From contig SFCB01000277.1 of NCBI GenBank assembly GCA_004367505.1, forward strand, positions 1 to 44,551: 44,551 bases of DNA, given 5' to 3'. The position numbers and the translations under genes were made by a program. Below are positions 3,719 through 34,221 of this stretch, one piece after another (the stretch's first letter is position 1; each line of letters starts with the position of its first letter). Below the pieces are notes generated by a model, which was not told the DNA's origin, searched no databases, and saw only the letters and a program-made list of their open reading frames with translations. Source of the stretch: Chloroflexi bacterium OHK40 (lineage in GTDB: Bacteria; Chloroflexota; Chloroflexia; Chloroflexales; Chloroflexaceae).

Positions 3719-4088
3719 ACGTGTTCCTTTCCGTGCTACTACAGCCGAGCAAAATGATCCCTGGCCGGGAGCCCATTGCACGCGGTTGTGGCCAGAACAC
3801 CGGGATGCCGCTCGGCAAGCTGGCGCAGGCTGCCGAATAACGCCGTCAGAGCCCGCCCGAGGCTATGGAGCATCGCTTCCCCCTTTTTCGAGGCCAATCT
3901 TCGCGGCCGCCACCGACCACGTGCGGTGAGTCTAGCGTGGCTAGCCTGCGGTGTGTTCCCAGAAATGGGGGCGGATGTCCCAGGATGAGTGGGAGCGGGC
4001 CGGGCACGGGGAATCGTGGGGGCGGTGAGCGAGCTGCCGGGCTGAGCCGCGCGATCCTGGCGCGCGCCCTCTCACAGAGGCTTGGGGC
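3719..4088. other. 370-nt intergenic stretch without a recognised gene
   Basis: This lies between the start of the lipoprotein gene and the stop of the STAND ATPase, both on the minus strand. It must hold the lipoprotein promoter, but I cannot pick a clear -35/-10 pair. Short reading frames here lack family features and ribosome sites. No tRNA-like cloverleaf or strong terminator hairpin was seen. Confidence 0.5.
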
Positions 4089-6785
4089 TCATGCGCCGAG
4101 GGCAGCGCCGAGCTGCTCGGTAGCAGCCACTTCGGCGGGGATGTCGAGCTGGCGGAAGCGCTCCAGGGCGCTGCGGATGTGGCGCCGGGCCTCTGCGGCC
4201 GCCCCGGCTGCGAGGTGAGCCTGGCCGAGGGAGCGCTCGGCGTAGGCCACGAGGAAGGGGTCGTTATTTTGCTCGGCCAGCCGTGCAGACTCACCAAAGT
4301 GGCCCAGGGCGCCCGTCGTGTCGCCGCGAGCCAGGTCGATCTGGCCAAGGGTAAAATGGGCGTAAGGCACGGTGGAGCGGTGGCCCATCGCCAGAACCTC
4401 GCCAGCATAGCGCGCGGCGCTCTCCAGGTCGCCGAGCTCGAAAGAGGCTTCGGCCAGGTTGGTTCCAGTGTGGCCGGCAAAATAGTGGTCGTGCACCGCC
4501 GTAAAGAAGGCGTAGGCCGGCGCGCCGATCGCCAGGGCGGCCTGGAACTGCCGTGTCTGCACGTAGATAAAGGCCATATTGCTGCGCATCTTCTCCAGGC
4601 TCACCCGATCCCCCAGGCGCTCAAAGATCGTGATAGCAGCCAGGCCGTGGGCCTCGGCCTCGGCGAGCTCCTGGCGTCGGCCATAGATCCCGGCGAGCCA
4701 GCGCTCGGCCTGGGCGCGCAGTGCGTCGTCATCGAGCTGCTCGGCGAGCTGGCGGGCATGCTGGTAGGAGCTGAGGGCCTCGGCGTAGGCGCCCTCCTCC
4801 TGGCGCAGCATGCCGCGCATGACGGCCAGGTCGAACTCGGCCCGATAGACATCCTGCCAGCCAGCCCGACTGTCGCGGCGGCGTTGGAAGAGCAGGGCGC
4901 GACGCAGGCGCATGGAGACGAGCTGGCTGAGCAGGCGGGTGGTGACATTCAGGCCCTCGGCGTAGCTCTCGAGGGCCTGGTCCGGGTAACCAAGGGCCTC
5001 CTGCATCTCGCCGCGCAGCATCCAGAGGCGGGCGCTCGCCTCGCTCTGATCGGCCCGGTCGGCCTGCTCCAGCTCGCGCAGGGCCTCCTCATACTGGCCG
5101 CTCATCTGGCGCAGCTCGGCGCGGATGATATCGAGCGCCTTGCGCTCCTGGCGGTCGAGCCGCTGCCGTGCGATGGCGGCGAAGATCTGGAGGGCGGCGT
5201 CGGCCTCGCCACGGGCGATGGCGTGGCGGCGCTGGGGGAACCAGACCTGGACCGCCAGCGCCTCTTGGTTGCCACGTACGAAGTGGTAGGCGGCGGCGGT
5301 GTACTCACCCCGTTCCAGACGCACCACGGCTGCCTCGCCGTGGTGCCGCTCGCGTTGCTCGGGCGTGAGTTCGCCCTCGATGATGGCCGCCAGGGCGGGG
5401 AGGAGTGCCACACCACCCTCGCCGTCCCGCTCGACGAGGCGCAGGCGGGTGAGGGCCTCCAGGGTGGTAGGGGCGATGATGCTCTCTGGGGCGTACCCTT
5501 TGTAGACAGAGAGTTGCTGGAGGGCGCGGCGTTCCTCGGGGCGCAGCCGCTGCCAGAGCCGCTGCACGGCGGGGAGAAGCGAGCGGGCCGTATCCTCACG
5601 CTCCAGGCTGACTGCGGTTGCGCTTGCCTCTTCCTCGAGCGCCAGCACCAGATTGATCAGGCGCGGATTGCCGCCGGTGTAGGCGTGGAGCCGCGCGACA
5701 TCCTGAGGGCTTGGCGTGTGGCCGGCGGCCTGCCAGAGCCGCCCGACGTCGGCGGCGGCCAGACCGCTCAACTCCAGATGCAGGTCGCACTCGGGCAGCG
5801 GGCGCTGGCTGATCAGCAGCAGCGGCGCGGCGCCACGGAGCCCCTCGATCAGGCTGAAGAGCTGGGCGTGGCCGGGTGTGAGCAGGCTCAGGTTGGCGCT
5901 CAGCAGGTGCTCCAAATCGTCGAAGCAGAGGATGGGCCGCTGCGCGCCGAGGCTGGTGAGATCCTGGCGCAGCAGGCCAGCGGCGAGGTTCAGGTCGCCA
6001 ACGGCCGAATTGACCGACACCAGGTACTGCCAGAGGTTTGAGGCCCCGCGCTCGTGGAGGAAGGCGCCGAGGGCCACCAGCAGGCTGTTGGCGCCATCGT
6101 TGAACCAGGGCCGCAGCGTGTACCAGAAGGACTCGCGCTCGGGGAGCAGCGCCAGTGCCGTGGCGCCGAGACTCGTCTTGCCTACGCCGCCAGGCCCGGT
6201 GAGGGCGATCGTTCGCCCGTCGCGGAGGGCCTCCCGCAGCGTGGCCAGCTGCCGGTCGTAGCCGAAGAGGCGCTCGGGCGGCTGCGGCCGCTCGGGGCGC
6301 AGGGCCGGGCGCAGGCTATCGAGGAGGACCTCGGCCAGCCGCTTGACCGCCCGATCGAAGTCTCGGTAGTGCTGCGACTTGGAGCCAGGAAGCAGGTGGG
6401 GCTGCTCCCAGATGTCGGAGATATGGAGCGGCTCCAGGTAGTCGTTGAAGCAGCGCAGTTCGAGCACCAGGTAGCTGTAGCGCTGGTCGTCCGGGTCGCG
6501 CCGGGCTTCGACGATGGCTGCCAGCATTGCCTCACGCGAGGCGGGGAGCGGCCCCTCCCAGAGCCTGGCTGCCGCATCGCGGAGCGCCCTGCGCAGCACC
6601 TCGCCCCGCGTCGTGTCGGCGACTGGCCGTGGCAGGTCGCGCAGGGCCCGGCCGAGCACATAGGGGCTCGCCAGGGGCGACTCCCGGCCCAGCCGCTCAG
6701 GCTCGCGGAACAGGCGCAACGCCTGCTTGACGTGGCGCTCAAAGGGCGTCAGGGCGATCGGCTCGGTGCGTGTTGCGGCTGTCAT
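4089..6785 (-). CDS. STAND-type NTPase with C-terminal TPR array
   Basis: The 898-residue cytosolic protein has three parts. Residues 10-165 form a helical N-terminal domain of unknown type that includes a Tyr/Arg-rich segment near 139-141. Residues 173-450 form the NB-ARC/STAND ATPase, with Walker A G-P-G-G-V-G-K-T at 197-204 and Walker B I-L-C-F-D-D at 285-290. From about 480 to the end it is a run of TPR-like helical hairpins with repeated A-x-x-x-Y/L-G-x-A patterns. Such proteins act as ligand- or protein-triggered switches in signalling, regulation or phage sensing. No effector domain is recognised, so the output is unknown. The ATG at 6785 has a GGAGG site 5 nt upstream. It is divergent from the secreted protein at 6951. 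Confidence 0.8.
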   Translation of the reverse strand: MTAATRTEPIALTPFERHVKQALRLFREPERLGRESPLASPYVLGRALRDLPRPVADTTRGEVLRRALRDAAARLWEGPLPASREAMLAAIVEARRDPDDQRYSYLVLELRCFNDYLEPLHISDIWEQPHLLPGSKSQHYRDFDRAVKRLAEVLLDSLRPALRPERPQPPERLFGYDRQLATLREALRDGRTIALTGPGGVGKTSLGATALALLPERESFWYTLRPWFNDGANSLLVALGAFLHERGASNLWQYLVSVNSAVGDLNLAAGLLRQDLTSLGAQRPILCFDDLEHLLSANLSLLTPGHAQLFSLIEGLRGAAPLLLISQRPLPECDLHLELSGLAAADVGRLWQAAGHTPSPQDVARLHAYTGGNPRLINLVLALEEEASATAVSLEREDTARSLLPAVQRLWQRLRPEERRALQQLSVYKGYAPESIIAPTTLEALTRLRLVERDGEGGVALLPALAAIIEGELTPEQRERHHGEAAVVRLERGEYTAAAYHFVRGNQEALAVQVWFPQRRHAIARGEADAALQIFAAIARQRLDRQERKALDIIRAELRQMSGQYEEALRELEQADRADQSEASARLWMLRGEMQEALGYPDQALESYAEGLNVTTRLLSQLVSMRLRRALLFQRRRDSRAGWQDVYRAEFDLAVMRGMLRQEEGAYAEALSSYQHARQLAEQLDDDALRAQAERWLAGIYGRRQELAEAEAHGLAAITIFERLGDRVSLEKMRSNMAFIYVQTRQFQAALAIGAPAYAFFTAVHDHYFAGHTGTNLAEASFELGDLESAARYAGEVLAMGHRSTVPYAHFTLGQIDLARGDTTGALGHFGESARLAEQNNDPFLVAYAERSLGQAHLAAGAAAEARRHIRSALERFRQLDIPAEVAATEQLGAALGA

Positions 6786-31293: not shown

Positions 31294-32106
31294 CTAGCGC
31301 TGGCACACCGGGCAGAAGAAGGTGAGAGCCTGGCCGATCCTGGTACGAGCGATCGGGGTGCCACAGCGAGGGCATGGCTCCCCGTCGTGCATGTAGATAC
31401 TGCGGTCCTGGCGGGCCCGCCCGCGCACGCCGCGCAGGTCGGGCATAGTGCCGCGCATGGCGATGCCCTCGGCCACCACCGCGCGCGCTGCGCCGTGGAG
31501 CCGCGCAAGCTCCTCGGCGCTCAGGGAGCCTGCCACCCGCCGCGGGTCGATCCGGGCCTCCCAGAGGCTCTCGTCTGCGTCGCGGATGCCGAGCCCCGCT
31601 ACGATCTTCTGATCGACCAGCGCCGTCTTCAGCACCCCGCGCCGCCCGGACAGCCGCGCCGCCAGATCTCTGGCGGTAAAGGCCGGGTCGATCAACTCGG
31701 GCCCGAGCTCGGCCAGCCTGAGCCGGGCCGCAACTTCCTCGGTCGGGCCGGCGGCCACGCGCGCGAAGCCCTTGCGGTCTCGCAGCCAGAGATCCTCGCC
31801 ACCCTCCAGGGCGATCACCAGCAGGGTCTGCGGATCGGGTTCTGTGCCAGCGGGCATAAGCCGCAGCGTACCGTGGAGCATCATGTGCATCGCCAGGGTC
31901 ACGCCGCCGCTGAGGGCGCAGAGGATGTGCTTGGCCCGCCGGTTGGCGTCTTCCATGCGCCGCCCAGCCAGCAGCGCAGCGAAGGACTCGGGCTCAGGGA
32001 AGCGCATCACTGCGGGGAACAGGACCCGGGCCGACTCGATCCGCCGCCCCACCACCAGCGCGCAGAGATCACGCACAAAGATTTCGACCTCGGGGAGTTC
32101 TGCCAT
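31294..32106 (-). CDS. Divergent Fpg/Nei-family DNA glycosylase-like protein with Ala in place of the catalytic Pro
   Basis: The 270-residue protein shows the Fpg/Nei plan: N-terminal A-E-L-P-E-V-E, Lys59, a helix-two-turn-helix segment (155-190) and a zinc finger with C245, C248, C265 and C268. These enzymes excise oxidised bases using the N-terminal Pro left after Met removal. Here that residue is Ala (codon GCA). The usual Asn of the G-I-G-N-I-Y motif is Ile174, and the zinc-finger Arg of G-R-S-T is replaced (G-Q-A-L). It may use an alanine amine, as human NEIL3 uses Val, or be a non-catalytic DNA binder. Start 32106 fits the family N-terminus. It lies 60 nt after nadE on the same strand. 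Confidence 0.75.
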   Translation of the reverse strand: MAELPEVEIFVRDLCALVVGRRIESARVLFPAVMRFPEPESFAALLAGRRMEDANRRAKHILCALSGGVTLAMHMMLHGTLRLMPAGTEPDPQTLLVIALEGGEDLWLRDRKGFARVAAGPTEEVAARLRLAELGPELIDPAFTARDLAARLSGRRGVLKTALVDQKIVAGLGIRDADESLWEARIDPRRVAGSLSAEELARLHGAARAVVAEGIAMRGTMPDLRGVRGRARQDRSIYMHDGEPCPRCGTPIARTRIGQALTFFCPVCQR

Positions 32107-32166
32107 CGCGGTCGTTGCCCTCCCTGGTAGCCGCATCAGCTCCCCGGGAGCCACTCCTCTGCCTCC

Positions 32167-34221
32167 TCACCCCGGCACGTTCGCCCTCAGCTCATCGAGC
32201 CACACCCGGGCCTCCGAGTCGCTCGGGGCACGCCAATCGCCACGGGGCGAGAGCGAGCCACCGGAGCCAACCTTCGGGCCATTGGGGACCGCCGAGCGCT
32301 TGAACTGGCTGATCTGGAAGAAGCGGAAGAGGAAGACCTCGAGCCAGCGCTTGATCGTCGGCAGGTCGTAGGCAACCCGCTTGTGCTCGGGCAGCCCCTC
32401 GGGCCAGGCCCCCCGAGCCGCGTCGCCCCAGGCGGCATGGCTCAGGTAAGCCACCTTGCTGGGGCGGAAGCCGTAGCGGGTGATGTAGTAGAGGTTAAAA
32501 TCCTGCAGGGCATAGGGGCCGATCTTCGCCTCGGTGCTCTGAGCCGGGCCATCGCTCTCCCCGTCGCCCGGCACCAACTCGGGTGAGATCTCGGTATCGA
32601 GAATGGACTGCAGAGTCGCGTTGGCGACCGCATCGAACTGGCCAGTGCGGATCACCCAGCGGATCAGGTGCTGGATGAGCGTCTTGGGCACGGAGGCATT
32701 GACATTATAGTGCGACATATGGTCGCCCACGCCATAGGTGGCCCAGCCAAGCGCCAGTTCGCTCAGGTCGCCCGTGCCGAGCACCAGGGCATCGTGCAGA
32801 TTCGCGAGGCGGAAGAGATGGGAGGTGCGCTCGCCGGCCTGCACGTTCTCGAAGGTCACATCGTAGAGCGGCTCGCCCCTGGCGTAGGGGTGGCCGATAT
32901 CGGCGAGCATCTGGAGCGCCGAGGGGCGGATATCGATCTCGCCCGCGCTCACCCCGAGGGCCTCCATGAGAGCGTGGGCGTTGCCCCTGGTGTGCTCGCT
33001 GGTGGCGAAGCCGGGCATGGTGTAGGCGAGAACGTTGGCGCGCGGCAGCCCCAGGCGATCCATCGTCCTGGCGGCCACGATCAGGGCCTGGGTGCTGTCG
33101 AGGCCACCGGAGACGCCGATCACCACCTTTTTGATCCCGGTGGCGCTCAGGCGCTTCAGCAGACCGTGGACCTGGATGTTATAGGCCTCGTAGCAGCGGG
33201 CATCGCGGGTAGCCGGGTCGTTTGGCACATAGGGGAAGCGCTCCACGGCGCGCATGAGCGGGAGCTCGCCCTCAGGCGGCACGAAGAGGAAGGGCACGCG
33301 GCGCATGCGGCGGAGGGCCTCACGCTGGTCGGCGGCAGAGTCGGCGAAACTGCCCAGGCGCATCCGGTCCTGCTGGAGGCGCTCGAGATCCACGTCGGCG
33401 AGGATGAGTTGTTCATCATCGGCGAAGCGGGCCGACTCGGCGAGGAGCTCGCCATTCTCGTAGATCAGGGCATGGCCGTCCCAGGCCAGATCGGTGGTAC
33501 TCTCGCCGGGGCCAGCGGCGGAGTAGAGGTAAGCGGCGACACACTTGCCCGACTGGCCGGCGCAGAGCGCCCGGCGGTAGTCGGCCTTGCCGATGGTAAT
33601 ATTGCTGGCGGATAGATTGCAGAGCACCGTCGCGCCGGCGAGAGCGGCGAAGGTGCTGGGGGGAAGCGGCGTCCAGACATCCTCACAGATCTCGGCGTGA
33701 ACGAGCAGGCCTGGCGTGCCCTCAGCCACATAGATCAGGTCGGCGCCGAAGGGCACCCGAGCGCCGAGCAGCTCGATCTCCGGGGAAAGGGCATCGCGGG
33801 CGGCGGCGAACTGGCGCTTCTCGTAGAACTCGCGGTAGTTGGGCAGGTAGCTCTTCGGCGCTACGCCAAGCACGCGGCCTGCGTGGATGGCGACGGCGCA
33901 GTTGAAGAGGCGGCCCTCGTGGCGCAGGGGGGCACCGACGATCAGCAGGGGGCGCAGCTCCCGCGAGGCCTCGACCACGCTTGCCAGCGCGGCGCAAGTG
34001 GCGTCGAGCAGGGCATCCTGGTGGAAGAGGTCGTCGTTGGTGTAGGCGGAGAGGCCTAGTTCGGGGAAGATCGCCAGCGCGGCGCCGGCGCTGTGGGCGC
34101 GGCGGGCCAGGGCGATGGTGCGCGCCGCGTTGAAGGGCGGGTTCGCCACCCGCACGGCGGGCACACCCACGGCGACGCGGGCGAACCCATGAGCATAGGG
34201 GGAGTGAAACGGGGTTGGCAT
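32167..34221 (-). CDS. nadE: Glutamine-dependent NAD+ synthetase
   Basis: This 684-residue two-domain enzyme performs the last step of NAD synthesis. The N-terminal nitrilase-type glutaminase has the triad Glu54 (F-P-E-L-G), Lys123 (P-K-S-Y-L-P-N-Y) and Cys179 (A-E-I-C-E-D-V-W), which releases ammonia from glutamine. The C-terminal synthetase has the PP-loop S-G-G-L-D-S-T at 371-377, which adenylates nicotinate adenine dinucleotide. Length matches the long glutamine-dependent form (about 680 residues). The ATG at 34221 lies about 6 nt after an extended -10, so the mRNA is probably leaderless. It likely shares a transcript with the Fpg-like gene downstream. Confidence 0.93.

Follow-up and report, generated by a model that had tools for sequence, protein, structure and literature searches.

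A clade of natural Fpg-like proteins in Chloroflexales with alanine at the position of the catalytic proline

The window analysed here, the whole stretch of 44,551 nucleotides of contig SFCB01000277.1 from Chloroflexi bacterium OHK40, carries on its minus strand a gene (31294..32106, with the ATG at 32106 and the stop at 31294) that encodes a protein of 270 amino acids starting with MAELPEVE. This protein is a member of the Fpg/Nei superfamily, with Pfam matches that exceed the cut-off in each of three domains: 87.8 bits for the N-terminal domain of Fpg, 69.4 bits for H2TH and 41.1 bits for the zinc finger of Fpg. The second codon, GCA (32101..32103, minus strand), places alanine where the catalytic proline is expected; this substitution had been claimed in a first-pass annotation of the same DNA, and it is confirmed by the open reading frame and by the alignment to Bst MutM. 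The frame also contains a GTG, 48 bases upstream of the ATG (ORF 32154..31294), and a wrongly assigned start is ruled out because initiation at this GTG would not yield proline, and the resulting N-terminal extension is not kept in the other members of the clade described below. The two findings that the annotation had named as fatal to its claim, relatives carrying the same gene with Pro2 and a second start giving proline, were both sought among these sequences, and neither turned up.

The upstream neighbour (32167..34221, minus strand), which, from its sequence, we take to be an NAD synthetase (NadE), adjoins the Ala2 gene also in two related genomes, G030 and G006. In these two genomes, the presumed NadE and the Ala2 gene are separated by a small gene (L085 11279-11707; L087 732-1160) that encodes a CxxCH motif and, by eye, resembles cytochrome c; the window has no such gene there. 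A conserved operon is ruled out: the presumed NadE is next to the gene only in the window, G030 and G006, and the neighbours in the other clade members are unrelated, so that the gene context points to no pathway.

By sequence, tree and predicted fold, the nearest known family of the window protein is Fpg, in trees that contained no NEIL3 row. Among solved structures, those closest in sequence are chains of Bst MutM, and the same protein is the top match of the AlphaFold2 model (seven-row alignment, mean pLDDT 91.1, pTM 0.85) in Foldseek and VIA-align, with an E-value of 5.8e-31 for 1r2y and, for both 2f5q and 1r2y, a Z score of 34.3 and an rmsd of 1.8-1.9 over 268 residues at 37% identity, compared with a Z score of about 26 for E. 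coli Nei. The structural alignment begins at residue 2. NEIL3 is absent among the 50 structural matches listed for the model, which is uninformative in either direction. The protein nevertheless falls below the cut-offs of both NCBIfam Fpg equivalog models (200.5 versus 212 and 199.9 versus 203.3); on the Nei models, it reaches 87.6 versus the cut-off of 252 for PRK10445 and 63 versus the cut-off of 400 for Nei2.

The Ala2 protein belongs to a small clade. Searching 61 genomes, those of the window and of 60 relatives, yielded six more sequences, 52 to 74% identical and all with Ala2, and a profile made from these seven sequences identified an eighth member, in G069, among 158 genomes of the class, with a wide gap between the clade members (at least 405 bits) and the next protein (263 bits). 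The support of the clade in two trees is 100/96 and 100/99. Its distribution in the order Chloroflexales is patchy, with members in 8 of the 82 genomes, namely 4 of 41, 3 of 6, 0 of 9 and 1 of 26 in the families f1, f2, f3 and f4, respectively. The profile detected no additional member in 400 genomes spread across the phylum, where the nearest protein, in G223, has Pro2. An N-terminal pattern search, which detects only the exact starts M/V/L-A-E-x-P-E-V-E (V or A in the 400-genome scan), matched 10 of the 158 class genomes, that is, the eight clade members and two unrelated genes; the slightly looser form matched 12 of the 400 phylum genomes, with an Fpg-like protein at the match only in G000 (the window's genome), G192 and G208. 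Membership in a virus-borne group was considered and rejected, a scan of viral contigs having returned three stretches with the pattern and no relative among them. In the titles and abstract openings that made up the searched literature, no mention of a natural Ala2 Fpg was found.

Beyond residue 2, the clade carries a signature of its own, counted in a single MAFFT alignment against 57 comparison rows; most of these come from Chloroflexota, Bst MutM and E. coli Fpg are among them, and the set does not represent Fpg as a whole. E. coli Nei (L095) was aligned and excluded from the counts; left out of the alignment were L076 and L078, which have no N-terminus, L042, a near copy of L043, and the distant sequences L040, L041 and L077. 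Residue 2 is Pro in all 57 comparison rows versus Ala in all eight clade members. The pair Ile175-Tyr176 of the H2TH domain, equally invariant among the 57, is Arg-Asp in 8 of 8 members, so that residues 174-176 of the window protein (31579..31587, minus strand) read Ile-Arg-Asp compared with Asn-Ile-Tyr in Fpg. Four residues of the loop that holds 8-oxoguanine (oxoG), Bst 221-224, are deleted in every member and in none of the comparison rows, at approximately 31438..31449 (minus strand) in the window, although the position of the gap may move by a residue or two. Met77 is replaced by Leu throughout the clade (Leu also occurs in 8 of the 57 rows); Arg112, an Arg in 55 of the 57, is Lys in three members and Leu in five; and the Phe114 position holds Phe in three and Tyr in five. 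PDB titles name MutM mutants at M77, R112, F114 and N174, as well as the inactive E3Q. In the cited part of a study of Fpg (PMC5422863), the Thr220-Tyr224 loop of the Bst enzyme touches O6 of oxoG and, in Lactococcus Fpg, recognition of the opposite C falls to Arg109, with the amides of Ile172 and Tyr173 holding the catalytic Glu; by the numbering match made in this analysis, Arg109 is Arg112 and Ile172/Tyr173 are 175/176. The Arg-Asp pair, the trimmed oxoG loop and the lost opposite-base Arg are thus features of the whole clade, and all three had been overlooked in the first-pass annotation.

The equivalents of Glu3, Glu6, Lys60 and His74 (Bst numbering) are retained in 8 of 8 members, and the four zinc cysteines are intact in all seven members that cover them. 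In the alignment to Bst MutM, the residues of the window protein opposite Pro2, Glu3, Lys60, Asn174 and Arg264 are Ala, Glu, Lys59, Ile174 and Ala, respectively, and its zinc finger (residues 242-270; 31297..31383, minus strand) keeps the four Cys and has the Arg of the GR(S/G)T motif replaced (GQALT). The presence of the zinc cysteines, Glu3 and Lys59, reported earlier, is therefore borne out, and the reported changes of the H2TH Asn and of the zinc-finger Arg hold for the window protein but not for the clade: Asn174 is retained in 7 of 8 members, with Ile only in the window protein, and Arg264 is retained in four of the seven members reaching this position, being lost in G000, G030 and G016. 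We take Lys60, His74, Asn174 and Arg264 of Bst MutM to be phosphate contacts. To judge from the alignment, the loss of Arg264 in three of the seven members and of Asn174 in the window may have made the binding of DNA weaker in the lineage of the window protein, so that the window copy may be weaker than the other members.

These losses, of which Ala2 would be one among several, together with the presence of the gene in so few genomes of the order, are what decay of the gene would be expected to leave, and yet this explanation is very unlikely. The reading frame is open in 8 of 8 members, one of them ended by a contig edge, the zinc site and the active-site residues are intact, and dN/dS between the window gene and that of G030 is about 0.26 (dN 0.187, dS 0.71), well below 1. 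The Ala2 gene is under purifying selection. The Pro2 Fpg genes of this genome pair give a dN of 0.153 and a dS of 0.94, near the values of the Ala2 gene; synonymous sites are saturated in all seven pairs that include G016. A sequencing error or a recent mutation at codon 2 is ruled out as well because Ala2 is present in 8 of 8 members and is encoded by three different codons: the window has GCA, G046 has GCG, and the remaining six share GCC.

A conventional Fpg with Pro2 is present beside the Ala2 copy in seven of the eight member genomes (G000, G030, G016, G006, G049, G052 and G069); the sole member genome in which the search gave no Pro2 Fpg is G046, which is 86% complete. In the window's genome, this second Fpg starts with MPELPEVE, is encoded on another contig (G000:C229), is 42% identical to the window protein and scores 305.9 and 281.7 on the two NCBIfam Fpg models. 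The Pro2 Fpg of G006 (L079, G006:C222:12700-14000) is in two pieces in different frames, the result of a frameshift or of an assembly error. Given the coexistence of the two proteins in most of these genomes, the Ala2 copy would be free to specialise.

Alanine at position 2 is not confined to this clade. A second Chloroflexota family, f20, has an Ala2 protein (L035/L109, L106), and an Ala2 copy is present in all six Acidimicrobiia genomes analysed (L036-L039, L042, L043), which were picked with the MAELPEVE pattern as bait and each of which has three to six matches to the Fpg/Nei family. In G510, the one f20-type genome searched by Pfam family, the sole other match is a divergent VPELPEID protein, and a pattern search across 100 genomes from the class to which G506 belongs detected such an Ala2 protein only in G506 itself. 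The f20 Ala2 proteins are otherwise Fpg-like, with Asn-Ile-Tyr, Arg112 and the full oxoG loop (the L035 gene is at 4001-4813). In all five Acidimicrobiia Ala2 rows counted, the Lys and the His of the active site have been lost; L042 and L043 are missing the first zinc cysteine pair as well. The Ala2 groups are separate on the trees, and parsimony requires three Pro-to-Ala changes, although the AU tests do not reject a single common origin of all Ala2 proteins (p 0.19 for one clade of 15 Ala2 rows and p 0.221 for one of the ten Chloroflexota rows).

What would a protein with this combination of residues do? The reading preferred here, which we consider about equally likely to prove right or wrong, is that the clade is an Fpg paralogue that functions as an active, mainly monofunctional glycosylase with substrates other than 8-oxoG opposite C. 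For the clade proteins, we infer the removal of the initiator Met, catalysis, monofunctionality and the range of substrates. Removal of Met1 would expose the primary amine of Ala at the N-terminus; this amine would either attack the damaged, flipped-out nucleotide at C1' or help the base to depart, Glu3 would protonate O4' of the sugar, and the damaged base would leave. Because the alanine imine would be carried on poorly to beta-elimination, an AP site would be released for an AP endonuclease, with the strand left mostly uncut.

This scheme of excision via Glu3 and the Ala amine, with release of AP sites, is suggested by published data on Nei2, NEIL3, hNEIL1 and Fpg, taken here from portions of the respective papers. 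The P2A mutant of Mycobacterium smegmatis Nei2 excises 5-hydroxyuracil like the wild type (32.5 versus 32.4%), has an AP lyase activity of 3.3 versus 93.8%, and remains able to rescue psoralen sensitivity; the glycosylase is lost in E3A and in K51A (PMC11323726). NEIL3, with its Val N-terminus, is mainly, not wholly, monofunctional (PMC5727206, PMC11323726), and the V2P change restores coupled incision (PMC5727206). In hNEIL1 P2G, Gly2 forms a bond to C1' through its primary amine, and Glu3 protonates O4' (PMC10164570), and calculations on Fpg favour protonation of the sugar by Glu (PMC4445063). The first-pass annotation had proposed that the alanine amine could be used as NEIL3 uses its Val, a suggestion that fits the cited NEIL3 and Nei2 P2A data but remains an analogy, the protein being nearest to Fpg; taken as a whole, that reading of the Ala2 protein is partly supported.

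The same data bear on the possibility that the clade has retained a bifunctional glycosylase/lyase, in which the Ala amine would form a Schiff base and support beta-elimination nearly as well as Pro does. The bond between a primary amine and C1' in hNEIL1 P2G (PMC10164570) and the description of Val2 NEIL3 as primarily rather than wholly monofunctional (PMC5727206) are in line with such an activity, whereas the residual 3.3% lyase of Nei2 P2A (PMC11323726) and the dependence of coupled action in NEIL3 on V2P (PMC5727206), as given in the cited parts of these papers, make it improbable. Nor does a non-Pro terminus guarantee excision, given that, in the portions cited, Nei2 P2C has no 5-hydroxyuracil glycosylase activity (PMC11323726) and an activity of about 10% on Fapy-dG is quoted for Fpg carrying P2G or P2T (PMC10164570). 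The lack of a common gene context and the patchy distribution of the clade also count against the preferred reading. The clade could consist of pseudo-enzymes that are maintained by purifying selection and excise no base, binding damaged or AP-site DNA so as to shield it or to recruit repair. The loss of Pro2, compounded in the window's lineage by that of Asn174 and Arg264, agrees with such a role, as does the absence of Lys and His from the five Acidimicrobiia Ala2 rows. All eight Chloroflexales members, however, retain Glu3, Glu6, Lys60 and His74, and Glu3, the change of which abolishes excision by Nei2 in the cited part of that study (PMC11323726), is of no evident use to a pure binder; the pseudo-enzyme explanation thus appears somewhat unlikely.

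If the preferred reading of a mainly monofunctional glycosylase is carried further, the Ala2 proteins would represent a natural prokaryotic P2A subfamily in which the NEIL3-like step to a monofunctional glycosylase was repeated in Fpg, the base pocket was rebuilt for a new lesion (through the Arg-Asp pair, the trimmed oxoG loop and the lost opposite-base reader), and Pro was changed to Ala up to three times in bacteria. This broader proposal is tentative, possible rather than probable; candidate lesions include hydantoins, crosslinked or bulky bases and damage in single-stranded DNA. The work on mutants and on NEIL3 has left a debate on whether the N-terminal proline of Fpg/Nei proteins is required for base removal or for strand cutting alone, and a natural, conserved Ala2 clade that has Glu3 offers a direct test: base excision by its members would mean that, in nature, the glycosylase step can do without the proline. 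The changes that co-vary with Ala2, in turn, point to the parts of the protein that set the substrate range.

Among the known systems, mammalian NEIL3 shares with the clade a non-Pro N-terminus, by analogy only: the residue is Val2 in NEIL3 compared with Ala2 in the clade, no close sequence relation is seen, and the 270-amino-acid window protein has no room for the C-terminal extension described for NEIL3 in the cited part of PMC5727206. Mycobacterium smegmatis Nei2 P2A likewise combines Ala2 with the retained Glu3 and Lys, and the clade is predicted to be, as this mutant is, a glycosylase without lyase; the mutant, however, is a laboratory variant of a Nei2, whereas the clade is natural and Fpg-like. 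The f20 and Acidimicrobiia Ala2 proteins resemble the clade in their MAELPEVE or VAELPEVE start and differ from it in other respects, those of f20 keeping Asn-Ile-Tyr, Arg112 and the full loop, and those of Acidimicrobiia being without Lys and His. In the engineered MutM loop-deletion complexes (PDB 3gq3 and others), the oxoG loop is removed and the fold is kept, according to the PDB title; these proteins have Pro2, and the deletion in the clade is natural and smaller, at four residues. The closest comparison is with Fpg/MutM itself (Bst MutM, PDB 1r2y, 2f5q), from which the clade differs by Ala for Pro2, Arg-Asp for Ile-Tyr, Lys or Leu for Arg112, Leu for Met77 and an oxoG loop shorter by four residues, with the window protein below both Fpg equivalog cut-offs, and with which it shares the full-length fold, Glu3, Glu6, the Lys, the His and the zinc finger.
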